Positions 10,526-53,523 of a DNA stretch of 64,000 nucleotides are shown piece after piece. The position numbers and the translations under genes are program-made. How positions within the stretch are numbered: position 1 is the stretch's first letter; each line of letters begins with the position of its first letter. Origin of the DNA: Colwellia sp. Arc7-D (GTDB taxonomy: Bacteria > Pseudomonadota > Gammaproteobacteria > Enterobacterales > Alteromonadaceae); assembly GCF_003061515.1 (NCBI RefSeq), contig NZ_CP028924.1:2790001-2854000 (forward strand), written 5' to 3'. Below the pieces are notes generated by a model. That model was not told the origin of the DNA and made no database searches. It was given only the letters and a program-made list of their open reading frames with translations.

Positions 10526-10560
10526 GGGGCTCCACATCACTTAAAGTTAACTGTACCTGA

Positions 10561-10586
10561 AACTGATTGTACCAGAACAATCAGTT
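10561..10586. promoter_or_regulatory. Palindrome upstream of fadR, possible operator
   Basis: AACTGATTGT (10561-10570), six-base spacer, ACAATCAGTT (10577-10586): perfect 10-bp arms, 36-61 bases upstream of the fadR start. It is not the consensus FadR site. A role in fadR control is inferred from position only. Confidence 0.35.
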
Positions 10587-11115
10587 GACACAAGCGCAAT
10601 AGAGCCTATTAAGTGTGGCGAGTGCCACTTAAGTTGAGAATTCGAGGCAGGTTGAGAATTTTTATTTTTGCAATTGACCAGTAAATTACAGCCAACATGG
10701 TTTAAGGCACTGTTACACCTACATATAAGCATAATTAAAGGTGCTGATTCATCTACATGTAAGTATGGTTAGTTAAGGGTGTTTCTAAGGTGGAGTGCAC
10801 TTATTAAAGCCTTATATGAGCAATGCACTATATAAACTTTTTAATTCAATGCATATTTTTGGGGTTTACTAAGACTTCTACACACTCAACCCAACTTAAT
10901 CATCTTTGTCGTTAACCCGACATTATAGTCATGAGGTGCAATTACATTTTGCGCAGCTTTGGGCATGCTAAAGTAATTAACATATTTAAACATTTTACCT
11001 TAAAGGTCATGAGTACGTGCAAAAATACACATACTCTGAGTAAATATCATTTTATTAAACCTAACTTGACCGTCGAAAAACCCTCCAAAACGTTCATTGA
11101 AGTTTTAGACTAAAA

Positions 11116-11145
11116 CGGCAAGTAATTCCGACAAACCGGTCATTA
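11116..11145 (+). repeat. Partial copy of the dispersed 53-base repeat (3' part)
   Basis: The sequence around ATTCCGACAAACCGGTCATT matches the 3' end and trailing bases of the copies at 14888 and 21356 (GACAAGTG..TCCGAC..AAGCGGTC). The 5' half of the repeat is not recognisable here. Confidence 0.45.
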
Positions 11146-11188
11146 GGATAGAAGATTTATAGACTGTAATTGCCACTTTGCGGAAGTT

Positions 11189-11225
11189 AACATACGATAA
11201 TTTTTACTAAAAATTATCGTATGTT
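11189..11225. repeat. Perfect 17-bp inverted repeat (isolated hairpin)
   Basis: AACATACGATAATTTTT (11189-11205), 3-base loop ACT, AAAAATTATCGTATGTT (11209-11225). There is no gene ending just before it on either strand, so an ordinary terminator role is not obvious. It is flanked by fragments of spacer repeats (GCGGAAGTT on the left, AGCGGACATGG on the right). Confidence 0.7.
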
Positions 11226-11511
11226 TTGATCTACAGCGGACATGGCTTTACAACCACATTACCTTAGCCGCTTACTGATAGCGGACGTTCTACATAGATA
11301 AAAAAACGTGTGCTTGATGTATATATCCCCGTCAATTTTAAGTTCATTGACTGGCAACAAAGCCACATAGCCGCCATTCTGAAGTTTCAGTAGATAGGCT
11401 ATTGCCTATTAGCCGTAAATGTAAATAAATGTGGGCGTTTGTTTGCTTTATCAAAAATAACACCTAAATTTATATTCTAAATACATAATTTTTTTGAGCA
11501 AAGGAATTCTC

Positions 11512-12195
11512 ATGTCATCTAATACAAGTTCAATAATTAGATTTATTATTCTCGTTTTTTTTTGCAGTTCAGCACAAGCCAGCTTGCTTTACTATGATTT
11601 CACTGGCTCAGTTTCACAAATTAATAGCAATTCACCTTCTTCCATTGCACTGGGAACAGCGATTTCTGGATACGTAGCGATTGACTACGATAATATTATC
11701 CGGACTAGTAATTCTGCTACATTTGGTGACTTGGTACAATATGGTGGCAGTGAACTTTCTTTTACAATAGGAGGATTCTATACATTTACCGCTAATATCT
11801 TTCCTGAAATAATTAGAAATGCTAATAGTTTTACCTACTCAGATCAGCTACTAATTAGTGCTGTAGAAAGCCAAATAAGCGCTCCTGTAATCAATGGACT
11901 CACAGCAGAATACTTCGTTTTACAATTTAAATGGGATAGCGGAAGTAGTCCATTAACAGAGAATACACTACCTTCTGACACCAATTTAACAGAAACGCTG
12001 AATAATTTTTCTAGTGTGAGTTTAAGATTTATAGATCCTAATACTAATCAAAGAGATGATAGTACATCCATTCGTTTTGATTTTTCAAATATGATGCAAA
12101 GAAGCGCTGCGACTGTACCTGAACCTAGCACTATTTCGATTCTTGGTCTCTGTGTGCTATTAATGTTTGTTAGTTCAAAGCGAAGAAAATTTTAA
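11512..12195 (+). CDS. PEP-CTERM sorting-domain protein
   Basis: Exported protein destined for the exosortase/archaeosortase system. A signal peptide ends at about residue 25 (FFCSSAQA). The C-terminus has the full tripartite sorting signal: VPEPSTISIL, a hydrophobic helix (LGLCVLLMFV), and the basic tail SSKRRKF. The roughly 190-residue mature part is Ser/Thr/Asn-rich and probably a beta-sandwich; its specific role is not known. I use the ATG at 11512, which has an AAGGA site six bases upstream. No exosortase gene is in the window, so processing must depend on genes elsewhere. Loss of the PEP signal would refute the call. Confidence 0.9.
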   Translation: MSSNTSSIIRFIILVFFCSSAQASLLYYDFTGSVSQINSNSPSSIALGTAISGYVAIDYDNIIRTSNSATFGDLVQYGGSELSFTIGGFYTFTANIFPEIIRNANSFTYSDQLLISAVESQISAPVINGLTAEYFVLQFKWDSGSSPLTENTLPSDTNLTETLNNFSSVSLRFIDPNTNQRDDSTSIRFDFSNMMQRSAATVPEPSTISILGLCVLLMFVSSKRRKF

Positions 12196-12551
12196 CATCT
12201 AAAGTTTAAATGTTAATCAGAATCCAGCCTTGAGATTGCCGTATAAACAAATAGCAAATTTTCGTTAATATTGCCCTGAATATGTTTAGGATTTCACAAA
12301 AGCTTAATGACAGATTCTATTCTGTGCTGCTCATAGTTTAAAAATGCCACCGTCTATAATGAGCTTGGAACAGTCATAAATATTGTTCTCGTTCTATAAC
12401 TGTATTTTGATTTTTTGATCATGATATTAGTCTCAAAGCCAATTTTTGGAACGTCTGCTATGCCAATGATTATCAAGTTGGCTGCCTACATGCTTAAGTC
12501 AACTAACTGGTGTTTAGTTGACCTCGATAAGCACTAAAAATTTTGAAATAT

Positions 12552-12673
12552 TACTTCCGCTTAGCGCACGGAGGAGTCTTTACTCTTGAATTCATTAATT
12601 TCAGCAATCGTATCTTAACTGGCGATAGATGCTGATTTTTCTTTAGGTCAACTGATAGTCAAAAGCGGAAGTA
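12552..12673. repeat. 122-base element with 11-bp inverted ends
   Basis: TACTTCCGCTT at 12552-12562 and its exact reverse complement AAGCGGAAGTA at 12663-12673 enclose 100 bases. The inner sequence has CGCTTAGCGCAC, also found at 13883, and AATCGTATCTTA, related to the 53-base repeat. A similar 124-base element lies at 40014-40137. No coding capacity. Confidence 0.6.
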
Positions 12674-12860: not shown

Positions 12861-13070
12861 CTATCCGCGAAAATCTTTACAAACCTTTGCCATGCCAGAT
12901 GAGAATTTCACACAATGCCCACTATTCTCAGAACGCTCTAAGCAATTTGCCATACATGTTTCGTAACTTTCCTTAGAAACACCATTCTCTTTTTTATCCG
13001 CATAGCCTAAAGTTGAATGTACGCAAGCAGACAATGCAAAAACAACAAATAATATAGCTATATATCTCAT
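12861..13070 (-). CDS. Small cysteine-rich lipoprotein (cassette gene)
   Basis: About 69 residues with a lipoprotein signal (ALSACVHS). The mature part has four spaced cysteines (ETCMANCLERS and HCVKFSSGMAKVC), the same C-x3-C ... C-x10-C pattern as the gene just upstream, suggesting two disulfides and common ancestry. I choose the ATG at 13068-13070, which has AAGGTG upstream; a GTG three codons earlier is possible. The stop codon abuts an attC site, and only about ten bases separate it from the upstream lipoprotein gene, so the two form a single two-gene cassette. Function unknown. Confidence 0.7.
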   Translation of the reverse strand: MRYIAILFVVFALSACVHSTLGYADKKENGVSKESYETCMANCLERSENSGHCVKFSSGMAKVCKDFRG

Positions 13071-13080
13071 AATAGTCACC

Positions 13081-13302
13081 TTAGTTATCTACCCAAATAT
13101 CACAATATGGTTGTACATTGCGATGATAAACAATGCAGGTATTACCATCTTCAGAAAACGTCCTACAATGCGTTGAACACTTCTTGTTCGACCACTCATT
13201 CCCATGTCCATCATTCCCATAAGTATTCCACCAAGTGTATCCGGTACAAGAACTTAAAATGAAAGAGAGTAAGATTAATGCTAAAAGTCTATATTTATTC
13301 AT
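13081..13302 (-). CDS. Small cysteine-rich lipoprotein (cassette gene, paralogue of its neighbour)
   Basis: 73 residues; lipobox ILSSCTGY after a hydrophobic N-terminus. The mature part is rich in Trp, Asn and Gly and carries KKCSTHCRTFSEDGNTC and PYC, matching the cysteine spacing of the following gene. It has a strong AGGAGG ribosome-binding site right after the attC core at 13321-13330, the usual position of the first gene in an integron cassette. Function unknown; outer-membrane location is inferred from the lipobox. Confidence 0.72.
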   Translation of the reverse strand: MNKYRLLALILLSFILSSCTGYTWWNTYGNDGHGNEWSNKKCSTHCRTFSEDGNTCIVYHRNVQPYCDIWVDN

Positions 13303-13319
13303 AACTTCCTCCTTGATGA

Positions 13320-13423
13320 GCTATAACGCCCATTTATGGGGGAAAATGTAGCTGGCTAAAGTAAGTGTTCGGAGTAACAGAAAGCCAATTGTATTTTGTC
13401 CCGCTTGGAATCATTGTTAGTTG
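13320..13423 (-). repeat. Integron attC site
   Basis: On the minus strand it runs from CAACTAACAATG through CAAGCGGGACAAAA and GCCAATTGGCTTT-like arms, then AGCCAGCTACATTTT, to GGGCGTTATAG. The outer arms (CGGGACAAAAT and ATTTTCCCCC) and the core sites GTTATAG/CTAAC fit the attC plan; length about 104. It separates the lipoprotein cassette from what was upstream. Confidence 0.8.
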
Positions 13424-13835: not shown

Positions 13836-14001
13836 AAAATAATTTATTAAAAAATATATGACTAAATTATTTGGGCTAAAGTCCGCTTAGCGCACAAAGT
13901 TAGCATTAATAATTTGATGATGAACGACCGCTATGGTGGCTTAGCTCACAGTCAGTAACAAGATAGATTGAACACTATAAACAGCTTAAACATCTATTAA
14001 T

Positions 14002-14031
14002 GCTAACGTCCGGTATCGTATCTTAGTGATC
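14002..14031. repeat. Left 30-bp inverted repeat of the recombinase unit
   Basis: Matches the reverse complement of 14881-14910 at 27 of 30 positions; the shared core is TCGTATCTTAGTGATC. Together the two repeats bracket the tyrosine recombinase gene in a unit of about 909 bases. Confidence 0.7.
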
Positions 14032-14119
14032 CATTGTTGGGGTGATTCAGAAGGGTCTATAATGACCGCTTTGAGATATTCGTGGAAGGAAGAGTCCATT
14101 CTTCCTGATTTTTTATAGT

Positions 14120-14743
14120 TTAGATATCTATAGCCTCAGATAATTCAAGGGCATCATCGACCTCAATACCAAGATAACGTACAGTACTTTCCAATTTTGT
14201 ATGACCAAGTAATATTTGGACAGCCCGTAAATTTTTAGTTTTTTTATAGATCAAAGATGCTTTGGTTCTTCTCATCGAATGAGTACCATACGATGTAATG
14301 TCGAGACCAATACTTGCAACCCATGTTTTGACAATCCTTGCGTATTGACGGGTTGTTAGGTGGCACCCCTTTCTTATCCGACTACCAAACAAATAATCAT
14401 TAGAATGAAGCGATTTTAATGCGATCCACTCTTTAAGCGACTCTTGGGTCTTTTTAGTTATTTCAAATCGAACAGGAGTACCTGTTTTTTGTTGAATCAA
14501 TATTGCTCTAGATTGAATACTTTTCCCATGAGCGATATCCATGACTTTAAGTTTAATAAAATCACACGCTCGTAATTTACAATCTAATGCTAAATTGAAC
14601 ATAGTAAGTTCGCGAAGGTTATTTGCTAAATCAAGTCTTGTCCTTATAGACCATACTTCTTCAAGCTTAAGAGGAAGTTTTTGACCAACTAATTTACCTT
14701 TATTCCAGCTAGGTTTTGGGGTGTAAGGAATGATGTTATACAT
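14120..14743 (-). CDS. FimB-sized tyrosine recombinase (catalytic domain only)
   Basis: Site-specific recombinase of the phage-integrase family. From the ATG at 14741-14743 (AAGGAG site seven bases upstream) the product has 207 residues and all catalytic positions can be placed: Arg58 (KLRACDF), Lys86 (QKTGTP), His155 and Arg158 (THSMRRT), His181 (LLGHTKL) and Tyr190 (VRYLG). It lacks the N-terminal core-binding domain of typical integrases, as FimB and FimE (about 200 residues) do. It is not an integron integrase: the IntI-specific insert is absent and the protein is too short. The gene is framed by 30-bp inverted repeats (14002-14031, 14881-14910). Whether it acts on those, on the cassette arrays or elsewhere is unknown. 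Confidence 0.9.
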   Translation of the reverse strand: MYNIIPYTPKPSWNKGKLVGQKLPLKLEEVWSIRTRLDLANNLRELTMFNLALDCKLRACDFIKLKVMDIAHGKSIQSRAILIQQKTGTPVRFEITKKTQESLKEWIALKSLHSNDYLFGSRIRKGCHLTTRQYARIVKTWVASIGLDITSYGTHSMRRTKASLIYKKTKNLRAVQILLGHTKLESTVRYLGIEVDDALELSEAIDI

Positions 14744-14880
14744 AATAGTGCTCCTTTGGTTAAAGAGACTATAAGTATGGTTCAACGATTTTGGTAATTT
14801 GAAACTATCTGGTTGAGATAGAAAGGTTAGCTAAAACCCAAAGCAGACGGATTGACTTGTTATCAATCAGGCCACCTAGT

Positions 14881-14910
14881 GATCACTAAGATACGAAAAC
14901 GGACATTAGC
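14881..14910. repeat. Right 30-bp inverted repeat of the recombinase unit
   Basis: GATCACTAAGATACGA begins the repeat; it pairs with 14002-14031 with three mismatches. Its right 23 bases are also the start of the 53-base dispersed repeat, so the two repeat systems share sequence. Confidence 0.7.
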
Positions 14911-14940
14911 CTTAGCTTATCTAACGACAAGTGATCCGAC
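14888..14940 (+). repeat. Dispersed 53-base repeat, copy 1
   Basis: Starts AAGATACGAAAACGGA and ends GTGATCCGAC. The copies at 16081-16133 and 21356-21408 have the same length, orientation and order of blocks (AAGATACGA, CGGA, TTAGCCTT-like, TATCTA, CGACAAGTG-like, TCCGAC). It is non-coding in all three places. Confidence 0.7.
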
Positions 14941-15434
14941 AAAGCGGTCGGAAACAGCGTTCAAAATTTTATTTCAACTGTTGGTATATAAAAAGACGTA
15001 AAGATGCCGAAAACATTGCTAACATTTATCGCACTCCAAAGTTGATACTAAGGCCACTTATCCCACTTTTGAAGCCTGCATGGTTTATTGTATCAAAAGT
15101 TTGATTTTCAGCATATTTTAAAGCTTATCAAGGGCGAATTAAATAATAATCTAATAACTAAATTTGATTAAATACTTACCTAAACTATAGTTATTACTTG
15201 ACCGTAAGATAAAAGGGATTTTACTATATTCAAATTATTCTAAAAAGAGGCGACCCTAATACGGTGATATCTATCAAAGGAGTTTCGCTAACATTCAGAT
15301 AACCATGGATCAATTAACAAATCCTAGGTTAGCTTCATAAATGTATAAGGCACTTGAACAACAAGTCTGCGATAATTTTGTATTAATGTTCATCTGTAAT
15401 CAACTAGCCCAACATTCCTACTGGAGGAATTATT

Positions 15435-15920: not shown

Positions 15921-16304
15921 ACCTCTATATGACCTAGTCATCTAAATTCAGTCACCCTATAGTGGCATAGTTAATTTGGCCACTGATCTATAATGGCAGT
16001 TGAATTACTTAAATATAAAGCTAATGTCTGCTTATGGCTAGCTGAAGAAGTCTCCAATAATCACTAACTCAATGTTAACAAAGATACGAAACCGGACGTT
16101 AACTTTGGCTTATCTAGTGACAAATTTTCCGACATTGATGTCATTAACACAGCTCTATTTAAAGATAACTTTTTACCGACAGTAGACTTAAGAGCTATGC
16201 TGCTCGGGGCGCCACTGAGTCTAAATAAGGCGTTAGGCAAAAAGATGAATGCATTGTTATGATAACTAAACTATCACATAAAAAGTTACTTTAGGACTCA
16301 AGGA
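15921..16304. other. Intergenic spacer with dispersed repeat
   Basis: 384 bases, no gene. It has GCTAATGTCTGCTTATGGCT at about 16018, repeated with small changes at about 17869, and the second 53-base repeat copy at 16081-16133. Confidence 0.5.
16081..16133 (+). repeat. Dispersed 53-base repeat, copy 2
   Basis: AAGATACGAAACCGGACG at the start and TTTTCCGAC at the end, with the same internal order as the copies at 14888 and 21356. It diverges most in the middle block. Confidence 0.65.
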
Positions 16305-17716
16305 ATGAAATATAAAGCGCATCTGTATCAAAAATGTTTTTTTCGTAATACTTCAATCACAACCCTTATCTTTTTTATATTAACTTTATTTTCAGCGTTA
16401 TCTCTATCAGAAGAAGTACAAAAAGACAAAAAAAGTGCTTTCGAAAAAGCGAGAGAGCAATATATTAATCAAGTGTCAAAAATAATTGAAGGGGAAAGGC
16501 TATATTTTTTTATTGAAACGCCAGAGCCAATAAAAACCGGAAAATCAGGAACTATCCGTTATCAAATTAAGAAAAGGGAAAAAGTAAGTCAATTGAATTG
16601 GCAAGTAACATTATCTATTTATAAGAATAATAAATTTATTTCAGATTATTCAATGAAAGAGCAGAGTTCAACAGAAAGTGATACTGAGGGAGATGAAACG
16701 ATATATAGCAGAAATTTTGTAAAGAGTATCCAGCTAGATGAAAAGGGAAAATATCAAATTGTTATTGAGGCACGATCCTTAAACATGGAAGGAAGGAAAG
16801 TTAGCCATATAGGACGTAAAGACATTTACATTATACCTAACCCTGAAATCAAGTTTACGGGTGAGATTATAGAGTCGTTGATTGATTCAGATGACAATGG
16901 TTTAGCGAACTCACTTAGGGTTACTCTTCCCTTTAAAGCAAACATTGGAAATAACGAAAAATACAGAGTATGGGTGCGCTTAGGAAATAAACAGTACAAC
17001 GGCATAGGTGACATCATTACAAACACAAGCTTTGTCATTAATAATAAAAAACATTTATCTCAGGCTAGAGAGTCAAATATAATTGCTTTTGAAAAAACTA
17101 TTATTGATAGCTCACATACCGCAGTCATTGTTGAATTTAAAGGTAAAGATATTGCAAAGAAACACCAATCAGGAAAGTTGAGGTTAGTTAATGTAGTTAT
17201 AATGGCTGACGATGAATATTCCTGGGGAGGCTTCAGGAAATTCCGTACATTGGTGAAACTAAATCATATTCTTTTGAAGTATTTGAAAGGCCATTAATCA
17301 CCGTTCATCAGCATCAGGCTACTATAACTATGATTGATGATAATGACGATGGAATTAAGGAAGGTTTAAATATTAAGTTTGACGTTAGTGTGGTATTTGA
17401 TGGTTCATATGAAGCATTTATGTCCTTTGGGGAAAGAAGAGACTCATTATTTTTTATTAAAGAAATTTTTGAGTTAACTGCTGGAGACCATGAAATTAAT
17501 ATTTTTGTATCTGCCCAAAGGCTGGTTAATGCAAAAGCTGAAGGAGAGATACCATTAACAACTTTCCATTTCAACACAGCAAAGTCTCTTAACTGGCCAA
17601 CAGAAACTCGACATAATTTTGGATTAACACCATCTTTTTCATGTAAAGATTTTGAAGATTGTACAATTAGATTACCAAAACCAGTGACTTGTCTTGATGA
17701 CTGTTCTGACTTTTAA
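16305..17716 (+). pseudogene. Exported protein of unknown function, split by a one-base frameshift
   Basis: Not recognised. The first frame (16305-17297) encodes an N-terminal signal/anchor segment (about residues 15-35), then several beta-rich, Lys/Glu-rich domains, including one with DSDDNGLANSLRVTLPF near residue 195. It ends in an out-of-character tail. The -1 frame, open from 17216, continues with KSYSFEVFERPLITVHQ and a second DDNDDGIKEGLNIKFDV, clearly a repeat of the earlier domain, and stops at 17716. One missing base near 17231-17236 (TTCAG where TTCCAG would keep frame) explains the break. The intact protein would have about 470 residues, with DxDxNDG-like loops that may bind calcium. 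Sequencing error or a recent mutation are both possible. Confidence 0.7.
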
Positions 17717-18194
17717 TATCAAGTGCATAACAGCTAACTTTCAAGCTAGGTTTCCGATAAGCTTAAAAGGTTTTGTTGGTGGTAAAGTGAACTATTTGCT
17801 TTGATAAATACATGTCTAAATTAGGTCGGCTTTAGGCTCAAAACTGTCATTAGTAACTCAAAAGCTAATGACTGCTTATGGCTAAGAGCTGAAGTATTGA
17901 TTTAGTCACTTGTAACCTCTTCAATGCGCACAAAGTGATCATATTTATCAGTGGAAACCTAATGTTATGTAGTGGTCACTATAAATGTCATAAGATGGCA
18001 GAGTTAGATAATAATGACAGGTATTTCTGATGATACTGAGTGGCACAACTGATGTAATTGTCCAATAAAGAATATAATAGAAAGTTATCACTTGTTTTTA
18101 CACTCCAAACAAGTGATAACTTACGTGCATATGTACACCCTAAAAAGAGCTTCATTGAAGTTTATAGTTTTAAATTGGTTATTCGTCTCAGGCG
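17717..18194. other. Intergenic spacer
   Basis: About 480 bases without a supported gene. It includes GCTAATGACTGCTTATGGCT at about 17869, a near copy of the 16018 motif, and the phrase CATAAGATGGCAGAGTTA. An inverted pair around ACAAGTGATAACTT at 18085-18125 is visible. Nothing else is recognised. Confidence 0.45.
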
Positions 18195-20452: not shown

Positions 20453-20659
20453 TTAGCTTAGTTGAATGTATAGAGTTATCAAGTTTAGGTTTACTCTAAG
20501 CCATAATCGTTGGAGTTTAACAATTATTAGCAATAGCAATGCTAAAATAAGTAGGAGCAGCGCGACAATTAAGCATATACATAACAGCACTTTGTACATA
20601 GCTATCGTTATAATCTGCATAACTAACGTCAGCAGATCCGACAAAGAAGTCATAAACAT
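20453..20659 (-). CDS. Possible small membrane peptide
   Basis: 68 codons directly upstream of and on the same strand as the membrane protein gene, encoding two hydrophobic stretches rich in Leu/Ile (LLCICLIVALLLLILALLLL split by no charged residue). The N-terminus MTSLSDLLTL looks natural, but there is no ribosome-binding site and the composition could arise from AT-rich sequence. The opposite strand has an equally long open frame. Weak call. Confidence 0.28.
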   Translation of the reverse strand: MFMTSLSDLLTLVMQIITIAMYKVLLCICLIVALLLLILALLLLIIVKLQRLWLRVNLNLITLYIQLS

Positions 20660-20677
20660 TGATTAATGACTTCTTTG
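20641..20677. repeat. 12-bp inverted repeat next to a repeat fragment
   Basis: CAAAGAAGTCAT (20642-20653) and ATGACTTCTTTG (20666-20677) form a stem with a 12-base loop. The bases just before it (GATCCGACAAAG, from 20635) match the end of the 53-base repeat at 14932, so this may be another degenerate copy. Confidence 0.5.
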
Positions 20678-20797
20678 ACCTAAAGCGGATATTGCTAGGC
20701 GGTTAAAAAATATTGGTTGGAGAACGACTAGCCATAAAGGGGATTAATGATAAAGTAAGATCAAGCACAACGATAGGTTATGATTTAACAGGAAGTA

Positions 20798-40653: not shown

Positions 40654-40676
40654 GCTAATTAATACTCATAACGCCA

Positions 40677-41556: not shown

Positions 41557-41569
41557 TTCATCCTCCGAA

Positions 41570-42697: not shown

Positions 42698-42705
42698 TTT
42701 AATCT

Positions 42706-42806: not shown

Positions 42807-42808
42807 CC

Positions 42809-43243: not shown

Positions 43244-43257
43244 GAGCATCCTTGGCA

Positions 43258-43355: not shown

Positions 43356-43410
43356 TTGTTAACCTCAAAATACATAAGTGCTATCAATAATCAGCTAACT
43401 ATAATACAAA

Positions 43411-44418: not shown

Positions 44419-44512
44419 TTAGCTTGCTCATTTTATTTAGTATTTATTTATACCAAAACACATTACGTAACGTAACCTATAAACTTAGATATTAAATTAA
44501 AAGTTAATGAAT

Positions 44513-44692
44513 ATGTTTTCATATATTTAGAAAGGCTCAATTAAAAAGTTGGACAAACTTTATGAAAGTAAACTTGAAGAAGCTATGTATGCCCAGCGTA
44601 AAGGTGATATGAAATCTTACGCAATGATCACTGCTGAAGCTGAAAAAATAAAAGTACAGATTTTGGAACTACAAGCTTCTACAAAAACATAA
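44513..44692 (+). pseudogene. DUF6435-like small protein, frameshifted near its start
   Basis: The frame from TTG 44551 to the stop at 44692 gives KLYESKLEEAMYAQRKGDMK and SYAMITAEAEKIKVQ, the pattern of the small proteins I know as DUF6435 (KLxxxYxxxLExAMxAQRxGDI...YxxLTAEAE). The family start (MFxxFRKxxxKKL) is present in the other frame: ATG at 44513, then reading TTT instead of the TTTT at 44516-44519 gives MFHIFRKAQLKKLDKLYESK. So one extra T, or its miscall, breaks a 59-residue gene. It lies on the opposite strand to its cassette neighbour and ends against an attC core. Confidence 0.65.
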
Positions 44693-44790
44693 CGCCGTTT
44701 TAAGCGACGATTAATAGCTTGCTATAATGTGCAATGAAGTGGAACCGAGCAAACTGTTAAGAGTTCGACTTAAAAACCCTATTTAAGTAT
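44688..44790 (-). repeat. Integron attC site
   Basis: On the minus strand: ATACTTAAATAGGG, TTTTTAAGTCGAACTC, TTAACAGTTTGCTCGG, later TAGCAAGCTATTAATCG, CGCTTAAAACG and GGCGTTATG. GTTTGCTC/TAGCAAGC arms pair partly. The outer arm has extra sequence compared with the other sites. Confidence 0.75.
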
Positions 44791-45010
44791 CCTTATTATC
44801 AGAAAGTAAGTCTAATGCATTAACTAAAAGCTCGTGTTCTTCTGTACCCCTTTTAATATCCCACGCTTTACCTAAGAGAAGCCCACCGAAAATAGCTAGA
44901 GTTGTTGAAGTGAATCCAAACATGTTTTCATCAATAGACAATATAATGCTAGGCATAAAAACAAAAGTAATAAAAACTACTCCCAAAATAAAAAATAACC
45001 ACTTATTCAT
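44783..45010 (-). CDS. Small membrane protein of unknown function (cassette gene)
   Basis: 75 residues with two helices (KWLFFILGVVFITFVFMPSIIL at residues 3-24, read in pieces; TTLAIFGGLLLGKAW near residue 38) and an acidic, soluble C-terminus (EEHELLVNALDLLSDNK). Resembles the two-helix membrane proteins often carried by integron cassettes. Between attC sites at 44688 and 45089; it stops within the first core of the former. Function unknown. Confidence 0.65.
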   Translation of the reverse strand: MNKWLFFILGVVFITFVFMPSIILSIDENMFGFTSTTLAIFGGLLLGKAWDIKRGTEEHELLVNALDLLSDNKDT

Positions 45011-45345
45011 CGTTTGCTTTTATAGTATGTTTCCAATTTGTCCGCAAATTCCAATTTTGTCATAAATCCTCCAGTGATTGATTTGATATCTAACGTCATA
45101 TTAAAAGGTTAATAATCGTTGGTTAAAATAAGTAACGAAGGAGTAAACAACTAACTGTTATTTACCCTTTTGAGTGACTTGTATAGAACACCATTTTTTG
45201 ATTACTTAGCAAAACCAACTTATTTTTTTGTAAAAAAAACTTAAAAACAACCACCTACTGAACCTACCCTGTAACTCAATCTGTGTCTAGCAGAGTATGA
45301 TAAGAACAGCTTCCTTTAAATGATTTAGACTAGCTAGGTACATGT
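45011..45345. other. Right end of the cassette array
   Basis: 335 bases with no gene: the attC at 45089-45188, whose own cassette gene is missing or lies beyond the boundary, followed by AT-rich sequence up to the oxidase gene stop. No integrase gene and no recognisable attI are here. Confidence 0.55.
45089..45188 (-). repeat. Integron attC site at the proximal end of the array
   Basis: On the minus strand: TATACAAGTCACTC, AAAAGGGTAAATAAC, AGTTAGTTGTTTAC, then TTAACCAACGATTATT, AACCTTTTAATATG and GACGTTAGATA. GTTAGTTG/TAACCAAC arms pair with one mismatch. It is the last site to the right. Confidence 0.75.
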
Positions 45346-46758
45346 TTATTGTTCATTCTGCGTGACTGGAAAGCCCATTTTTTCAACTAGGCTTATCCAT
45401 GGTTTACGCCAGCCACCTTTTTCGTCAAGCGTATCTAAGGCATACATCGTTATTTTTGCACCAATCCAGCGAAATGGCTCTGGTGGAATATACCCAGGTA
45501 ATGTAGTAGCAAACTTAAGTTTAACTTCAGGTATACCGCTTTGATCTAAAACCCCTAATCCTACTCGCGCACCAAAGCGCGTAGCGGTAACACCAAAGCC
45601 AGAATAACCACCGGCATAAATCATATCACCTTGATAATAATGCTGGTAATGCACTGCCATTCGGGTAGTTAAAGCGATAGGACCACTCCAAGCATGAGAA
45701 AATTTAATGCCTGTTAGATACGGAAAAGTCTTATAAAAGTTTTCAACCAATGGGTAGAAATTATCGGCAGTTTTATCTGCTTTTGGATCGGTATTATTGT
45801 TAAAGAAATAACCTAAACGTCCACCAAATAATATTCTATTATCAGCCGTTAAACGCATATAGTTTAATTGCGTTCGTGTATCGTATACACCTTGACGATT
45901 CTGCCAGCCAATTTCTTTCATTTGAGCAGCGGTTAACGGCTCACTAACCACAATACGATCACGAATTGCTGACACTCTTCGGGTAATTTTTTTACTACCC
46001 GCGGCGAAAGCATTTGTAGCAAGTAATACTTTATTAGCTTTAATACTGCCTTGTGGAGTAACCACTAGCACACCTGGTTTAAGATGGGTTGACGACTCTA
46101 GTGGGGTGTTTTCAAAGACTCTAACCCCTAACTTCATTGCAGCTTTCTTCAATCCCCATGCAAGCTTGGCTGGGTGTACTGTTCCGCTACGTTTTTTTGA
46201 CCATAAACCACCATGAAATAAAGGTGAGTTGATCTCTTTTTGAGTAGCTTCTTTATCCAATAAATGCGCGTCATGGCCATATTTTGTATACAGCTTATGT
46301 TCACTCACAATATCGGGTAAACCATCATCACCAATGGCGACCGTTAATTCACCGCCCCACTCAATATCGCAATCAATATTGTAACGTTCAATGGTCGCTT
46401 GAAAGCAATCCATGTTCTCTTTACCTAGGCGCTCAAGCTCATCCATGTCTTCAGGAAATAAGCGGTTGGCATTTGCTAAACCATGCATTACTGAGGTAGA
46501 AAGTATCGCTGCAGGGCGACCTGAAGCGCCAATAGCAATAGATTGGGCTTCAATAATAACAACATCACGTTCTGGGTTTGCTTCTTTGGCGTGAATAGCA
46601 GCCCATAATCCTGTAAAACCAGCACCAACAATAAGTAAGTCACACTTTATATTCGCCTCTAACACAGGCTCTGGCTCAGGTGCAGCTTCATTATCTAACC
46701 AATAAGGGAAAAACTTTGTTTTTAATAGTGCCTGTTTAGCATGCAAATTAGTTGTCAT
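45346..46758 (-). CDS. FAD-dependent amine oxidoreductase (PuuB/DadA-like)
   Basis: 470 residues of the DAO fold. The FAD-binding motif LLIVGAGFTGLWAAIHA is near residue 40, with the Glu of VVIIEAQSIAIGASGRP about 30 residues on, and GGYSGFGVTATRFGARVG near the C-terminus closes the FAD site. The long N-terminal extension (LLKTKFFPYWLDNEAAPEPEP) is as in gamma-glutamylputrescine oxidases. The substrate is probably an amine or N-substituted amino acid, e.g. a putrescine or guanidino derivative, given the ureohydrolase and aldehyde dehydrogenase genes nearby. It is separated from those by the regulator and receptor genes; the shared LuxR-type regulator next to it suggests common control. No signal peptide: cytoplasmic. 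Confidence 0.87.
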   Translation of the reverse strand: MTTNLHAKQALLKTKFFPYWLDNEAAPEPEPVLEANIKCDLLIVGAGFTGLWAAIHAKEANPERDVVIIEAQSIAIGASGRPAAILSTSVMHGLANANRLFPEDMDELERLGKENMDCFQATIERYNIDCDIEWGGELTVAIGDDGLPDIVSEHKLYTKYGHDAHLLDKEATQKEINSPLFHGGLWSKKRSGTVHPAKLAWGLKKAAMKLGVRVFENTPLESSTHLKPGVLVVTPQGSIKANKVLLATNAFAAGSKKITRRVSAIRDRIVVSEPLTAAQMKEIGWQNRQGVYDTRTQLNYMRLTADNRILFGGRLGYFFNNNTDPKADKTADNFYPLVENFYKTFPYLTGIKFSHAWSGPIALTTRMAVHYQHYYQGDMIYAGGYSGFGVTATRFGARVGLGVLDQSGIPEVKLKFATTLPGYIPPEPFRWIGAKITMYALDTLDEKGGWRKPWISLVEKMGFPVTQNEQ

Positions 46759-46863
46759 GGGTCGTTACTCGTTCAAATGGATTACATTAAGTATGAAACA
46801 ACTATTTCAAAAAATGAGTAATTTAAATATCCCCTCATAAGGTGAAGCTTACTGGTAAAACGA

Positions 46864-47691
46864 TTATTTCAAAAAAGTTAAGGGGTCAACTATCGCGCCT
46901 TCAGGCATGGCTTTCAATGACGCTATAAATAAATAAAACAACTCAGATTGTGAGCTAACATCAAGTTTATTATATATTTTTTTACGATGGTGCTTTATTG
47001 TTTCAACACTATTAGTTAACTTTTCAGCTATGTGTTTAATAGAATAACCATGCAAAACAAGATGAAGTATTTTACTTTCTCTTGGCGTTAATAGTGAATT
47101 ACCAAAGTTGACTAAAGCGTTGTCCAGTTGCCACTCTAAGTTGGGTGCTTTAGTTTTTGTAATGTTTTTTCGCCACCGGATCAATATACTTTTGATCAAA
47201 GGAAAAATGATAGCAACTTGTTTCAAATCAGCTTTAGAAAAAGGGTTTTCGCCTGCATGCTTAACCATTGAAACACTGACAATAGCTTTATCTTCAAACT
47301 GAAATAAAAGACACATCTCGTCAATAAAACCTAATTTTTTGTAAAATAAATCGTAATACTCTGAGTCTTCAAAACCTTCAGGGCCAACACAATTTACGGT
47401 AAAAGGTCCTTCAACTCTTTCATCTAAGGCTTTACGGTAAAATGGATCTAACAAATACGCACCAGCGTCATAAGTATCAATTTGGTATTGCGGATCTTCA
47501 TTGGCAAGTAAACGATGGTGAGAAGTTTGTGGGGGTTGTGAATGTTCAAAAATAGTCACTAAGCCACTACTACCATTGACTAAATTTTCAATACCTTTTA
47601 ACAGTTCTGCAATAGCCTCTGAGCTAAAATCTTTAGCTATCACCATTGCTAATGACTCATGCCAGTTAATTAACTTACTCGAACTATTCAT
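46864..47691 (-). CDS. LuxR-family transcriptional regulator
   Basis: 275 residues from the ATG at 47689-47691, with AAGG seven bases upstream (longer in-frame starts look artefactual). The first 190 residues lack a receiver or recognised autoinducer-binding fold; they include EDSEYYDLFYKKLGFIDEMC and KADLKQVAIIFPLIKSIL. The C-terminal helix-turn-helix is typical GerE: LTPRESKILHLVLHGYSIKHIAEKL and SVETIKHHRKKIYNKLDVSS near residue 210-255, read in pieces. It lies between the oxidase and the TonB receptor, divergent from the receptor, so it probably controls the catabolic cluster. The effector, perhaps the guanidino or polyamine substrate, is inference. Confidence 0.88.
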   Translation of the reverse strand: MNSSSKLINWHESLAMVIAKDFSSEAIAELLKGIENLVNGSSGLVTIFEHSQPPQTSHHRLLANEDPQYQIDTYDAGAYLLDPFYRKALDERVEGPFTVNCVGPEGFEDSEYYDLFYKKLGFIDEMCLLFQFEDKAIVSVSMVKHAGENPFSKADLKQVAIIFPLIKSILIRWRKNITKTKAPNLEWQLDNALVNFGNSLLTPRESKILHLVLHGYSIKHIAEKLTNSVETIKHHRKKIYNKLDVSSQSELFYLFIASLKAMPEGAIVDPLTFLK

Positions 47692-47901
47692 ATAAGCCTT
47701 TTTTATCCTAATTTTAAAATCAAAAACATAACGTAGTTTACACAATACATGTGCTCCCCTTTTTAGGGGATAAACAAACATAGCTTAACCTGTAATAGTC
47801 TAAGAAGAACATAAAAAACATATTCAGCAAAATCACCTAGTTGCTACTAATAATGATTAACGACTGAATTTACAGAAAATACTATACCTTGGAGTGAGAC
47901 G

Positions 47902-50196
47902 ATGAAAACACATCATATTTTTTCTAAGTCAGTCATCGCACTGGCAATTATTACCACATTAGCACCTGCCGCAAATAGTGCTGAAATTGAAAAAATTCAA
48001 ATAACAGCGCAAAAACGTACACAAAGCATCAATGAAGTGGGTGTTACAACCACCGCTTTTAATGGTGAAATGCTTGAAGAGTTAGGCATTGAAAGTGCTG
48101 TTGATTTAGGTGATCACACTCCAGGCCTAGTCGCCGTTAACTCAACGTCAGGCAGTACACCTATTTTTGCCATTCGTGGTATTGGCCTTGACGATTTCAG
48201 CCCGAACAATACAAGTGGTGTTGGTGTATATACTGATGAAGTTTTTGCTAGTAGCCCTGCATATTTAGGCGGTCAACTATTTGATATTGAACGCGTTGAA
48301 GTATTAAAAGGCCCGCAAGGAACTTTATACGGAAAAAATACAACAGGTGGTGCCATTAACTTTATTACCCGTAAACCTACTGAAGATTTTGAAGCTTTTA
48401 TCGAAGCTGATTACAGTAGTTATCAAACACTTGAAATTACAACCGCTGTAGGTGGTGCGTTAACTGATACAGTTAATGGTCGCTTTTCTCTTAACTACGC
48501 TAAATCTAATGAGGGTTGGCAAACAGACAATAGTACCGGTGAAGAATTTGGTTTAATCGATACGTTTGCGGTTAGAGGTCAACTTGGCTTTGAATTGGGC
48601 AGTAGTGGCACTGCCTTATTCCGTGTTTATGCCAATCAAGATAAATCAAAGCCTTTGACTCCTGACAGTGAAGGCATTAAAGATAGTTTTGGTGATGACT
48701 CTTTTGCAGCATTAAATTCTCCTGCCGCTGCTGACGACGTTAGTGTTGGCGCACTTGACGTTAGTCGTGATGAATCAGGATCTGGCGTTGCATTAACCTT
48801 AGATTATAGTTTTGACAAGTTTGACGTGATTTCAATTAGCTCATGGGATCAATATGACCGTGCCGTTGTTGATAATTATGATGGAAGTGCTGTTTCAACT
48901 ATGACGCTAGTGCAAGATGATAAATTAGAGCAATGGTCACAAGAGATACGTTTTATTAGCACAGATAATGACGATTTTACTTGGGTAGCGGGTGCTAATA
49001 TTTCCAATGAAAACGTCGAAGCTTATGACTTCTTTGATGACTCTTTCTTTGTTACCGACTCAGCATTTGACGGCACTTTATACCCAGAAGATATTAATGC
49101 TTTTGGTTTAGATAGATTTATTGCCGATTATGTACAAGAAACAGATTCTTATGGTTTATATTTGCACACTGAAACTCAGCTTAATGACAATTGGAAATTC
49201 ATTGCAGGTATTCGTTATTCGTATGATGAAAGAAGCTTTAATGGTACTGCAACCAATGAAAGTTTTGGTGATACCTTCCCTGTAACATCATTAAATGAAA
49301 CAAATGATGAGAGTGCTGTAACAGGTAAAATCGGTCTTGACTGGAAAGTAAATGATGATTTATTGGTCTTTGGTAATGTATCAACAAGTTACAAAAGTGG
49401 CGTTTACTATGGTGGAGCAATACTAGACTCTGATGCATGGAGTTATGTAAAACCAGAAGATGTACTCTCTTCTGAACTAGGCTTTAAGTGGACTTTACTA
49501 GACGGCAGTATGCAACTTAACGGCGCACTCTTTGCGTTAGAGTATGAGAACCGTCAATCACTATTAACCTATGTCGCTGATGAATTTAGTGATTTTAGTG
49601 GCTTCGCTGTTGCTGATACCACGCTAGCCAATATTCCTGAATCTCAAACTTCAGGTTTTGAACTTGACTTACGTTGGTTACCGACTGACGAGTTAACCAT
49701 TCAGGCAGGGGTTGCTTATTTAGACTCGAAAGTAACTAAAGCGCCAAATACTGAAGATTTGCGTGGCATTAACACCGACCCTTCAGTGAATGATCAAGCT
49801 AGTGAAGACGGATTTGGTTTTGTCGATGCACTTGCCGACGAATTAAATAAAAACACAGCATTATCTCAAGCACCAGAGTGGAGTTATAACGCCTTAGTTG
49901 CTTATGATATGCCACTAGAGAATGACTTGTTTTTAAAATTCCAAACAAGCTATAGCTACTCTGGTTCGCAATACGCACAGCTTGCAGATAGTAATGCTAA
50001 GTATGGTTCAATCAGTACCTTAAATGGTTTAGTTTCCTTAACGTCAGATGATGCAGGTTGGTCAGTATCACTTTGGGCAAGAAACATACTAGATAACGAC
50101 GCTGAAACCTATTCATTTACTGGTTTCGCAGGACGTACAGTGTATCGTCAAAAACCGGCAACATTTGGTGTTACATTCAAGTATGACTATTACTAA
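47902..50196 (+). CDS. TonB-dependent outer-membrane receptor
   Basis: 764 residues. The signal peptide ends near ANSAEIEK (residue 27); the TonB box-like segment is IEKIQITAQKR. The plug domain carries STSGSTPIFAIRGIGLDDF near residue 90 and ERVEVLKGPQGTLYGKNTTGGAINFITRKP near residue 130 in pieces. The beta-barrel with alternating aromatic strands follows, ending FGVTFKYDYY with a terminal aromatic. It lacks an N-terminal signalling domain, so it is not a FecA-type transducer. Acidic loops suggest a cationic ligand such as a polyamine or guanidino compound; this is inferred from its neighbours. GGAGTGA ribosome-binding site. Confidence 0.92.
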   Translation: MKTHHIFSKSVIALAIITTLAPAANSAEIEKIQITAQKRTQSINEVGVTTTAFNGEMLEELGIESAVDLGDHTPGLVAVNSTSGSTPIFAIRGIGLDDFSPNNTSGVGVYTDEVFASSPAYLGGQLFDIERVEVLKGPQGTLYGKNTTGGAINFITRKPTEDFEAFIEADYSSYQTLEITTAVGGALTDTVNGRFSLNYAKSNEGWQTDNSTGEEFGLIDTFAVRGQLGFELGSSGTALFRVYANQDKSKPLTPDSEGIKDSFGDDSFAALNSPAAADDVSVGALDVSRDESGSGVALTLDYSFDKFDVISISSWDQYDRAVVDNYDGSAVSTMTLVQDDKLEQWSQEIRFISTDNDDFTWVAGANISNENVEAYDFFDDSFFVTDSAFDGTLYPEDINAFGLDRFIADYVQETDSYGLYLHTETQLNDNWKFIAGIRYSYDERSFNGTATNESFGDTFPVTSLNETNDESAVTGKIGLDWKVNDDLLVFGNVSTSYKSGVYYGGAILDSDAWSYVKPEDVLSSELGFKWTLLDGSMQLNGALFALEYENRQSLLTYVADEFSDFSGFAVADTTLANIPESQTSGFELDLRWLPTDELTIQAGVAYLDSKVTKAPNTEDLRGINTDPSVNDQASEDGFGFVDALADELNKNTALSQAPEWSYNALVAYDMPLENDLFLKFQTSYSYSGSQYAQLADSNAKYGSISTLNGLVSLTSDDAGWSVSLWARNILDNDAETYSFTGFAGRTVYRQKPATFGVTFKYDYY

Positions 50197-50282
50197 ACAA
50201 TAATACCTAAACTCACCTGAATGAATCCCCTATATAGGGGATTTATCTCCCCTCGCTCCGCTCCTATAATATTTATACGGTA

Positions 50283-50522
50283 ATGCCAAACCTTCAAGAG
50301 GATAAAGTAAATATGCCAAGTAAAAATTATACGCAAGAAATTGTGCAAAAAGACAAAGCACATTTTATGCACCCTTGGACTGTATTTGATGTTTATAAAA
50401 CCGAAGGGGCTTTGCCTATCGAAAAAGCATCAGGCATACATATTGAAGATACCGATGGTAATAAATATCTAGATGCTGTGGGTGGTTTATGGTGCAATCA
50501 CATAGATAAGGACTCAAGCTAA
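50283..50522 (+). pseudogene. Class III aminotransferase, N-terminal stub
   Basis: The 79-residue product begins like an omega-amino acid or polyamine aminotransferase: HFMHPWTVFDVYKTEGALPIEKASG, then IHIEDTDGNKYLDAVGGLWCN near residue 55-75, and ends abruptly HIDKDSS. A complete enzyme has about 450 residues with the PLP lysine near residue 280, so some 375 residues are missing. There is no frameshift explanation: the aldehyde dehydrogenase starts at the very next codon. An internal deletion probably removed the body of the gene. The restart, PSKNYTQEIV, may indicate a true start at the second ATG (50313). The stub is unlikely to be active. Confidence 0.75.
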
Positions 50523-51938
50523 ATGCTTAATTTAAATAAATACTATATTGATGGTCAATGGCTTAATAACACCAATGGTAATGTCCTCGATGTTATAAAC
50601 CCTGCCACTGAAGTTGCTATCGCTCAAGTGGCTTGTGGTGATATTGAGCACGTTAATGCAGCGGTAAGTTCAGCTAAAAAAGCCTTTCCCGTTTGGTTAA
50701 ATACATCATCAAAAACACGCAGTGATATTATTAAAAAAATAGCCAGTGAAATGGAGCGCCGTCAAGATGAATTAGTAACGGCGGTATCACAAACTATGGG
50801 TTGCCCTGAGCACATTGCTAGCTGGTTGCAAATTGAAGGCGCTATTTACGCCATGGCATTATTTGCTGATCACACTGCGATAACCGAAACTCAAGAGCAA
50901 GGCGATAAGTGCATTATTGTTAAAGAGGCAATTGGTGTTTGTGGTTTTATAAACCCTTGGAATTTCCCCTTGCATCAGTTTGTCGGTAAAGTTGGCGCTG
51001 CGCTTGCTGCAGGTTGTACTATGGTGGTTAAACCCTCTGAACAAACGCCTATACAAGATTTTATCATGGCCGAAATTATTGCCTCGGTATTAGCAGAGTT
51101 TAACGCCCCTGCAGGCGTATTTAATTTGGTGCCAGGCACAGGTCCTGTTGTTGGTGATGCCTTAAGTCGTCATGCAGATATTGATATGATTTCGTTTACT
51201 GGCTCTACTGGAGCAGGGATTAAAGTGGCGCAAGCCGCTGCACCGACAGTAAAGCGGGTAATGCAGGAACTTGGCGGCAAGTCACCTTTTATTATTACTC
51301 CAGATGCAAACTTAGCTGATGCGGTAAAGTATGGCGTTGAAGATGTAATGTTAAACAGTGGCCAAAGCTGCAATACACTGGCCAGAATGCTAGTACCACA
51401 AGCGCTTTATGATGAAGCTGTTTCATTAGCTCAAACCATAGCTCAGTCATTAAAACTTGGTATGACAGAAGATGCTTTTTTAGGTCCAGTAAGTTCAAAA
51501 GCACATCAAGATCGCGTACTAAGCTATATTCAATTGGGTATTGATGAAGGCGCAAAATTAGTCTGCGGTGGCCTTGAACGTCCTGAAGGTTTAGATAAAG
51601 GTTTTTACATTAAGCCAACAATTTTTGCTAACGTGCATAATAAAATTCGCATAGCTCAAGAAGAAATATTTGGTCCTGTTTTGTGTATGATCCCTTACCA
51701 AACAATGGATGAAGCTATTGAAATTGCTAATGATACACCTTTTGGTTTGTCTTCTGCGGTATTTGCCAAAGATGATAACGCGGCAATTAAAATTGCCACA
51801 AAAATTCGCGCCGGACAGTGCATGATAAATGGTGGTGAATTTAATTATTCAGCCCCTTTGGCGGCTACAAACAATCAGGCAATGGCAGAGAATTCACCGC
51901 TATGGGTGTTGAAGAATTCCTTGAAACAAAAGCCATAA
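50523..51938 (+). CDS. NAD(P)-dependent aldehyde dehydrogenase
   Basis: 471 residues as read. GFINPWNFP near residue 145, the cofactor site [11 protein letters not shown] near residue 225, ELGGKSPF with catalytic Glu near residue 250 and [13 protein letters not shown] with catalytic Cys near residue 285 are all present. The C-terminus is odd: after NYSAP it should read [13 protein letters not shown], but a T-run of three at 51857-51859 (four expected) shifts the frame. The true end would be at 51973 (…EFLETKAII...). The short wrong tail may still allow activity. Oxidises aminoaldehydes such as 4-guanidinobutanal or 4-aminobutanal in this setting. It directly follows the aminotransferase stub. 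Confidence 0.9.
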
Positions 51939-51974
51939 TATATACCACTAATACTTGTGAAGAAGGTGAATAAA

Positions 51975-52967
51975 ATGAGTAACGCGAATAAGCCCCCAAT
52001 TAACCAGCCTAGATTTAACCAACCTATGGGTGGCAATGAAATGCCACGTTTTGGCGGCCCAGGTACCATGTTTCGTTTACCTGCCTGTGACTTAAACAGC
52101 AATGATGCCGCCGAACTTGATATCGGCATTGTTGGTGTACCATTAGATATTGGTGCAAGTAACCGCAGTGGTACACGTTACGGTCCTCGTTCAGTGCGTA
52201 ATGAATCAGTATTAGTGCGACCTTATGGCATGTATACCAAAGCAGCGCCATTTGACAGCTTTCAAGTGGCCGATATTGGCGATACCGCAATTAATACTTT
52301 TAACTTAGCTGATTCGATTAAAATTATTGAAGCGCACTACGACGATATTATGGCCAAAGATATTAAGCCTGTTACTGTTGGTGGCGATCACACCATTAGC
52401 TTACCTATCTTACGTGCGTTATATAAAAAGCATGGCACCATGGCGCTTGTCCATATTGATGCTCATGCCGACATTAATGACAGCATGTTTGGAGAAAAAG
52501 AGTGTCATGGCACAATTTTTAGACGCGCTATTGAAGAAGGTTTAGTTGACCCGAAAAAAATGGTGCAAATCGGCCAACGAGCAACTGGCTATAGTTCACA
52601 AGATTTTCAATGGGCAGTTGATCGTGGCGTTCGTGTCGTTCAAGCCGAAGAATGTTGGTTTAAATCATTAACACCTTTAATGGCTGAAGTTCGAGCGTTA
52701 ATTGGCGAAGAAACGCCAACTTACCTCACCTTTGATATTGACGGATTAGACCCAGCTTTCGCGCCAGGAACTGGTACACCAGAGCCTGCCGGATTAACAT
52801 CATCACAAGGATTAGAAATTATTCGTGGTGTTTATGGTACTAATTTGGTCGGAGCTGATTTAGTAGAAGTTTCTCCACCTTATGATACAACCGGCAATAC
52901 GTCTTTATTAGCAGCTAACTTAATCTTTGAAATGTTATGTAGCTTTCCAGGTTGTATTCGAAGATAA
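51975..52967 (+). CDS. speB: Ureohydrolase (agmatinase/guanidinobutyrase family)
   Basis: 330 residues from the ATG at 51975, two bases after the restored end of the aldehyde dehydrogenase gene, with AAGGTG as ribosome-binding site. The manganese-binding motifs of the arginase/agmatinase family are all present: VTVGGDHTIS near residue 135, LVHIDAHADINDSM near residue 165 and FDIDGLDPAFAPGTGTPEP near residue 255. The N-terminal PPINQPRFNQPMGGNEMPRFGG segment is usual in guanidinobutyrase/guanidinopropionase-type members. It would release urea from a guanidino compound, giving GABA or putrescine. Gene symbol is by family; the exact substrate is not clear. Confidence 0.88.
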   Translation: MSNANKPPINQPRFNQPMGGNEMPRFGGPGTMFRLPACDLNSNDAAELDIGIVGVPLDIGASNRSGTRYGPRSVRNESVLVRPYGMYTKAAPFDSFQVADIGDTAINTFNLADSIKIIEAHYDDIMAKDIKPVTVGGDHTISLPILRALYKKHGTMALVHIDAHADINDSMFGEKECHGTIFRRAIEEGLVDPKKMVQIGQRATGYSSQDFQWAVDRGVRVVQAEECWFKSLTPLMAEVRALIGEETPTYLTFDIDGLDPAFAPGTGTPEPAGLTSSQGLEIIRGVYGTNLVGADLVEVSPPYDTTGNTSLLAANLIFEMLCSFPGCIRR

Positions 52968-53523
52968 ATAAACTAAATCTAGTCGAAGAAACTAATTTCG
53001 CGATTACATCGACAGTACTTAGCACTGAAATATTGCTCAGTACTGTCTCTCTTTTAATAATCAGAATTACTGAGTTCTAGTTATCAATGCCGTTATACTA
53101 CTAATATTAAACAGAACATTTGCCTTTTTTGACACTATATTAAGTTAGCCAAATTAATTAACGATCTCATTAATTATGAATCATTAACCCTTTCAGCTTT
53201 TTTGAACGCACATTTGTCTATTTTCAAGGCTTAAATTAAGCGTTTTAATTATATTAATACAAATTTTTATCAAGATATTTAACGATACAATATCGCTATA
53301 ATCACTGTTATTTGGACTTTTTTGACAGGTTTAATCGCATTATTATATATTCCTCAGTTAAAAAGCCACTCTCTAGGCTATTACAAAATAAAACTGGTTA
53401 ATCACACATATTTACAATAGTTAATTTTACGCTTAAACTCATGAGAGCATTAAATTTATATAAAATAATTATAAAAAGCACAGTCGCACTAACCCAAGCT
53501 CTTAATTTTTCAAAAGGTTCATT
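52968..53523. other. Right boundary spacer, nhaB upstream region
   Basis: 556 AT-rich bases between the ureohydrolase and nhaB. No gene and no clear repeats; 53000-53050 has a weak inverted pair around ACAGTACTTAGCACTGA / TCAGTACTGT that could be a terminator without a T-run. The transition from accessory block to conserved chromosome lies somewhere here. Confidence 0.5.

Follow-up and report, generated by a model that had tools for sequence, protein, structure and literature searches.

What has collected between fadR and nhaB in Colwellia sp. Arc7-D, and how did it get there? The locus lies in a window of 64,000 bp, by which we mean the whole stretch of DNA that was analysed (G000:C1:2790001-2854000, where G000 is the Arc7-D genome, one contig of 4.31 Mb). 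In it, fadR and nhaB point away from each other with 42,984 bp between them, called the block below. An earlier note on this DNA had described a minus-strand fadR and a plus-strand nhaB about 43 kb apart, with superoxide dismutase and glutaredoxin genes beyond the first and dsbB beyond the second, and family scores and positions bear this out (Table 1). Our reading, to which we give a probability of roughly 60%, is that the gap is a hotspot of the passive kind, part of whose cargo is supplied by a second cassette system, integron-like but not an integron. Its site would be a repeat of about 120 bp, here named R, and its enzyme would be a solo tyrosine recombinase.

The positions of fadR and nhaB were sought in 60 genomes, 17 of the genus Colwellia and 43 of other genera. 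Three of the 17 were left out of the interval counts: G015, which has the genes on two contigs, G008, where nhaB is represented by no more than a remnant on a different contig, and G007, 66% complete, in which nhaB had no match and fadR no strong one. The G008 remnant (L060, G008:C18:2494-2715) is the sole nhaB match in that genome and is short, with stop codons; nhaB seems to have been lost there. Across the 14 genomes that remain, the gap runs from 366 to 42,984 bp with a median of 9.8 kb, the 13 besides Arc7-D measuring 366, 524, 1555, 2857, 4997, 6400, 7507, 12123, 18589, 29566, 34197, 34333 and 39155 bp. Outside the genus, strong matches to both genes were found in 26 of the 43 genomes, and the genes are adjacent in 25 of these 26, at 155-1076 bp in 24 and at 2843 bp in G018; the remaining genome, G045, has them on separate contigs. 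Named nhaB loci were also surveyed, 80 in all, at least two of which are genomes already counted (G010 and G012). A divergent fadR stands within 10 kb in 78. The gap exceeds 1.1 kb in three, all labelled Colwellia, and the next largest is 1087 bp in Aeromonas cavernicola. The two loci where no fadR lies within 10 kb carry the Colwellia label as well, and one Colwellia-labelled locus (L148) is short, at 195 bp.

The intervals differ in content as well as in length. A blastn comparison of the block with the intervals of the 13 relatives (flanks aside, minimum piece 60 bp) gave, beyond pieces of 61-145 bp, a 1062-bp element that holds the recombinase (93% identical) and a 379-bp repeat from the fadR side, both in G006. 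Other pairs of relatives have cargo in common in mosaic fashion (G001/G014, G002/G004 and G011/G012). An integrase search with TIGR02249, which covered G000-G011 and six genomes of other families and does not report the solo recombinase type, gave no match in the intervals of G001-G006 and G009-G011, for G004 among the 30 of 32 matches listed. The solo recombinase type (E-value up to 1e-30) occurs within fadR-nhaB intervals only in G000 and G006. One and the same core-gene interval is seen with differing, mostly unrelated accessory content in 14 genomes of the genus. The earlier note had proposed to look in relatives for short intervals and for other cargo at the same spot, and the genus has both, down to 366 bp. 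It had also named two findings that would speak against a hotspot, namely relatives that all carry the same 43 kb and a fadR and nhaB that are normally far apart; the blastn matches are few and small, and the two genes are adjacent in nearly all the genomes of other genera scored. Judged from gene order and content, these comparisons show the fadR-nhaB gap to be a hotspot specific to the genus Colwellia and to have received unrelated DNA repeatedly.

On the fadR side, similarity to the relatives stops 54-166 bp upstream of the gene in 11 of 13 (382 bp in G005 and 644 bp in G006), and on the nhaB side it starts 116-178 bp upstream of the gene in the 13 relatives. The part that is kept is therefore little more than the two promoter regions. 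Insertion here would be tolerated because no gene is broken between two divergent promoters, and the gap may serve as a passive landing place whose content turns over through the conserved flanks and not by one integrative element. Hotspots between core genes have been described by Oliveira et al. 2017 (PMC5635113), and they have the same constant flanking core genes, very variable content and often no integrase. The present hotspot differs in that it was measured across species of one genus and that part of its content has a module-joining repeat of its own. No paper was found in the openly licensed literature on the fadR-nhaB island itself, nor one that treats fadR, nhaB and a genomic island together.

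What the hotspot has collected in Arc7-D is four unlike pieces: a stretch of modules, a redox and metal-efflux segment, an attC array and a catabolic cluster. The earlier note had listed a recombinase, a cassette array, metal-efflux genes and catabolic genes, all of which were found in the block, and had suggested cargo collected in several steps. The four segments support this; one was recently shared with G006, where it sits at another site, and another has copies elsewhere in the own genome. Where it wrote of cassette arrays, two module arrays are indeed present; it had missed that one of them is not attC-based. The redox and metal-efflux segment of 17.9 kb holds a two-component system, thiol-redox proteins, RND (resistance-nodulation-division) pumps including one of the CusA/CzcA type, a BlaI-type regulator and an M48/M56 peptidase. 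Its copy in G006 has sharp ends and lies away from the hotspot of that genome (3.57-3.60 Mb). The segment is 98.6% identical between the two genomes, whereas their core flanks are 85.5% identical over 13.2 kb, and this difference, with the sharp ends, shows a recent exchange of the segment as a unit.

The repeat R bounds modules in the module stretch and was found with Blast and iterated searches with a hidden Markov model (HMM). The HMM finds four copies in the window and none in 20 evenly spaced 20-kb control stretches (400 kb) of the own genome. Searched against 28 genomes, the R model gave 91 places, 21 of them in the own genome, a count that is favoured since the model was built from 12 own-genome copies. 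R is present in 15 of the 17 genus genomes (90 places; none in G007 and G013) and in 1 of 11 others (one place, weak, E-value 5.7e-4). Pairs of R less than 6.5 kb apart have the same orientation in 19 of 24 cases (p=0.007). The hotspot holds more than its share: 10 of 84 copies in the 14 resolved genomes fall in fadR-nhaB intervals, with 0.50 expected (six copies of G008 and G015 left out), and with the own genome excluded the count is 6 of 63, with 0.29 expected (p=5e-7), all six in G003 and G006. No literature on R was found among openly licensed papers, judged by the title and the start of the abstract.

Duplicated segments were compared among the block, nine loci chosen for repeat hits and 20 control stretches (at least 150 bp, E-value up to 1e-10). 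Repeats inside single stretches aside, all duplicates between loci join the block or the hit loci, and none touches a control stretch. At 637-640 kb of the own genome, R joins a row of three modules: one with a 99-aa open reading frame (ORF), a glyoxalase module and a module called unit A. Each of the three turns up again in other R arrays with different neighbours, the joint being at or close to AAAGATACGA. The 99-aa module is found at 639 and 1301 kb of the own genome and also in G006 and G003. The glyoxalase module as a whole was not found in 27 other genomes, the match in G009 being its R end only. In G006, two adjacent modules are flanked by a multihaem-cytochrome-like gene on one side and an rlmKL-like gene on the other, both identified by eye.

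Relative to R, the two copies of unit A lie the same way round, as do the three glyoxalase copies, and the modules keep part of the site. The left half-site is constant in 3/3 copies of the glyoxalase module, before three different followers, and in 4/4 copies of the 99-aa module, two of which have the same follower. The right half-site of unit A is constant in 2/2, after different predecessors, and the start of the 99-aa module is shared from a few bases past the core in the three of its four copies that were read, after three different predecessors. Among twelve junctions read, AAAGATACGA is exact in six and GATACGA is present in eight, and the most conserved part of R is the stretch around the junction. 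Of the 78 distinct ends of segments shared among R-bearing loci (35 segments of at least 450 bp), 20 lie no more than 30 bp from R; 2000 random shifts gave a mean of 1.26 and a maximum of 8. It is well supported by these comparisons that the modules, with exceptions, have been joined and re-joined at R. We are led to suspect that the modules are mobile, or once were, through site-specific recombination at R in the manner of integron cassettes.

The candidate enzyme is the solo tyrosine recombinase, whose gene stands between inverted R copies (55 nt, 78% complementary). Arg72, Lys100, His169, Arg172, His195 and Tyr204, which we take to be its catalytic residues, are invariant in eight aligned recombinase sequences. 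Its NCBIfam matches are all below cut-off (TIGR02249 gives 22.6 bits against a cut-off of 265), and its best match among solved structures is a Xer recombinase (E-value 4.4e-7). A core-binding domain is unlikely because only about 50 residues precede the catalytic-domain match. Simple tyrosine recombinases have been described in several kinds (Xer, RIT, TnpA, integron-like and others; PMC8138268, PMC3414803), several are tied to mobile elements and, by PMC8138268, they usually have a core-binding and a catalytic domain. The solo recombinase is like them as a tyrosine recombinase, and differs in that it seems to have no room for the first of these domains.

In the own genome, the recombinase itself is the sole match at an E-value up to 1e-30 and the one intact copy of its family, and a 146-bp remnant lies beside another R. 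Within the genus, 5 of 13 recombinase copies lie within 5 kb of an R where 1.3% would be expected (p=4.5e-7), a count that leaves out four matches in three genomes outside the genus. Without the own copy, whose R fed the model, the figure is 4 of 12 (p=1.3e-5), and without the copy in the G006 interval as well it is 3 of 11 (p=3e-4). We infer from this that the solo recombinase acts at R; the support is statistical, and it is confounded because both favour accessory DNA.

Several observations pull the other way. As many as 58 of the 78 segment ends lie away from any detected R, and the junctions other than those counted above deviate from AAAGATACGA or GATACGA by at least one base. To the left of two of the three glyoxalase copies there is no R bearing GATACGA; similarity there starts near GATCCGAC, about 45 bp further into R. 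In the window, the left end of unit A is at R; the R-like stretch that holds its right end is truncated before the core, and no R was detected at that end or at either end of the endonuclease I segment. No R lies within 5 kb of 8 of the 13 recombinase copies of the genus. Four plasmid relatives of the recombinase are 60-64% identical to it, and one R copy used as a query against plasmids and phages gave no match; the enzyme family therefore seems to work elsewhere without this R. R and the recombinase may just share a preference for accessory regions.

At an E-value up to 1e-20, 438 plasmid records match the recombinase. Inverted repeats were sought around its relatives in nine genome and four plasmid stretches. 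Pairs that bound the gene stand out in the G006 interval copy and in G018, and those in G003 and a Pseudomonas plasmid are shorter; the rest have none or only chance-like ones. A common motif near the relatives was seen by eye, the search expression being too loose to count it. In L087, a Pseudomonas plasmid, a relative bounded by a 24-nt inverted repeat comes directly after phnD, phnE, ptxD and a LysR regulator (phosphonate/phosphite genes).

The hotspot could also be passive only. Cargo would then come in by homologous recombination in the flanking core genes, as in the model of PMC5635113, and R would be a dispersed repeat joined by RecA or by illegitimate recombination. The wholesale differences in interval content and the rarity of integrases there suit this explanation, as does the statement of PMC5635113 that under half of hotspots encode an integrase. 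The junction region is the most conserved part of R, so homologous crossovers would fall there too. This explanation fits less well with half-sites that travel with their modules in all three modules read, and with R copies that are mostly head-to-tail. The junction between the glyoxalase module and unit A bears on it as well. Window junctions that possibly stand for its parents share just 12 identical bases at the switch. Twelve identical bases would be short for homologous recombination. We consider the passive-only explanation unlikely.

It is improbable, in our view, that R marks the ends of a small transposon, with the solo recombinase as transposase and the modules carried between two ends. 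The inverted R copies that bound the recombinase and the same 1-kb unit in G006 would be expected of such an element, but 19 of 24 neighbouring R pairs are direct and not inverted, and neighbouring modules in the row of three share a single R.

A third possibility makes R a variant attC and the modules integron cassettes of the ordinary kind, which the chromosomal IntI would move. The genome does have an IntI that scores above the family cut-off, the block itself holds an attC array, and a metallo-hydrolase gene in that array (43411-44418) is 89% identical over 1.1 kb to a gene that lies between R sites in G006 (L127 8444-9451). Integrase-less attC clusters are known as CALIN (clusters of attC sites lacking integron integrases). 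The array of the block is of this kind, with attC sites between its cassettes and no IntI beside it: it has six attC repeats of one family, a seventh lies at 13324, and the sites within the array match the one 6-16 kb from IntI (L076) at up to 85% over about 80-90 bp. R, in contrast, has no blastn match in the attC stretch of L076, and no R cluster adjoins IntI in the own genome. RNAalifold found no covarying pair on R (both sides changed in 0 of 9, covariation term +0.48), and R as a folded single-strand site was not supported. With no host attC match and no covariation, the R modules lack the attC-type site of an integron, and a variant attC is decidedly improbable. A strict GTTRRRY/RYYYAAC box test on R carries no weight, the positive-control attC sites having failed it too.

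That the block is one integrative island (an integrative and conjugative element or a genomic island that would have its attachment sites next to fadR and nhaB) is very improbable, since, although a recombinase gene is present and a second fadR-side copy lies inside the G006 interval, ARAGORN finds neither tRNA nor tmRNA in the whole window (the earlier note had seen no tRNA at either end), no repeat of at least 30 bp joins the two ends (14-base seeds; shorter attachment cores are possible), the only integrase-like gene inside is the short solo recombinase, nine other intervals have no TIGR02249-type integrase (with the limit for G004 given above), and the segments have different relatives.

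A passive hotspot partly fed at R thus stays our preferred reading, and a wider form of it is offered tentatively. Colwellia may have a second, non-integron cassette system, in which a site of about 120 bp with its own crossover core is used by a recombinase without a core-binding domain. The recombinase would move modules among scattered arrays and itself travel between R sites; the fadR-nhaB hotspot would be one depot, and some genes would pass to or from the integron. Like integron arrays and CALIN, R modules are small and mostly head-to-tail, with one site per junction. Unlike them, R does not resemble the host attC, shows no folded-site covariation and has no cluster by IntI. The dif-like site of pdif (dif) modules is 28 bp long and R about 120 bp, the likeness of R and dif having been compared by eye only. 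The pdif modules of Acinetobacter (for example PMC12907356) are flanked by sites of tyrosine recombinases and spread through a genome, as the R modules would be.

Many hotspots have no recognisable mobile element according to PMC5635113, which also says that many radically novel integrase-lacking elements in hotspots would be very surprising. A system of repeat-bounded modules whose arrays mostly have no adjacent integrase would, if real, be one such element, and R-type modules would escape attC-based searches. If the solo recombinase is the R enzyme, a widespread recombinase family gains a testable function. The hotspot itself, with gaps from 366 bp to 43 kb, is a natural series in which the accumulation of accessory DNA between two core genes can be studied.

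Table 1. Features of the fadR-nhaB locus of Colwellia sp. Arc7-D; positions are those of the window unless marked otherwise.
Feature	Position	Strand	Remarks
Glutaredoxin	8285-8626		beyond fadR
Fe/Mn superoxide dismutase	8952-9533		beyond fadR
fadR, left core flank	9815..10540	-	TIGR02812 381.7 bits, cut-off 249.2
Left accessory stretch	10541..12655	.	weak PEP-CTERM ORF 11494-12195, just under Pfam cut-off
Module stretch	12.6-21.4 kb
Two small ORFs	12861..13420	-	lipoprotein-like by eye, no Pfam match; attC-like end 13324-13362
Solo recombinase element	13877..14927	-	93% copy (1062 bp) in G006 fadR-nhaB interval
R site, partial	13999..14048	-	inverted relative to next R
221-aa tyrosine recombinase	14120..14785	-	PF00589 over residues 54-205
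R site	14849..14949	+
R site, full length	16026..16144	+
Unit A module	16078..17884	+	ORFs 16305-17297, 17330-17716; 99.7% copy at 636.8-638.6 kb of own genome
Endonuclease I segment	17842..19324	+	84% copy at 1780.8-1782.3 kb
R site, partial	20605..20653	+	left end of glyoxalase module
Glyoxalase module	20620..21371	-	three copies in own genome (98-99%), the other two at 639 and 1784 kb
R site	21329..21419	+	right end of glyoxalase module
17.9-kb redox/metal-efflux block	21790..39681	.	98.6% identical to G006 4222764-4240656
attC cassette array without integrase	40222..45200	-	sites match array near chromosomal integron integrase
Catabolic cluster	45346..52967	.	FAD oxidoreductase, LuxR-type regulator, TonB receptor, aldehyde dehydrogenase, agmatinase-like, aminotransferase fragment (by eye)
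nhaB, right core flank	53524..55113	+	NF007093 891.1 bits, cut-off 640
dsbB	55256-55774		outside block, nhaB side; identity confirmed
IntI, over family cut-off	2435567-2436514 (genome)		sole one; about 394 kb from attC array of block

Some smaller features of the block were noted as well. An Rfam search of it gave no match at an E-value up to 0.5. The sequence upstream of fadR at 10611-10987 has a second copy (87%) inside the G006 interval, like one duplicated boundary. In the redox and metal-efflux segment, the RND pump at 25583-28722 falls into two ORFs that use different frames (25583-26341 and 26563-28722) and is probably broken, or there is a sequencing error. A 179-bp direct repeat (75%) at 21562-21739 and 30025-30202 covers the 3' end of the ORF at 30078-30467 and adjoins the left outside of the same segment. 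Another dispersed repeat, at 39935-40150, has GTCCGC inverted repeats, and its copies in other R-bearing loci match it at up to 91%. In the block, the motif TAAYGWCYGC occurs at about 17 times its density in control stretches (8 in 43 kb against 4 in 380 kb). In the catabolic cluster, an aminotransferase-like start of 79 aa at 50283-50522 is followed at 50523-51938 by an aldehyde dehydrogenase with a cut-looking end (both by eye), and matches to the agmatinase-like gene at an E-value up to 1e-60 are confined, among 27 other genomes, to two, which both belong to the genus.

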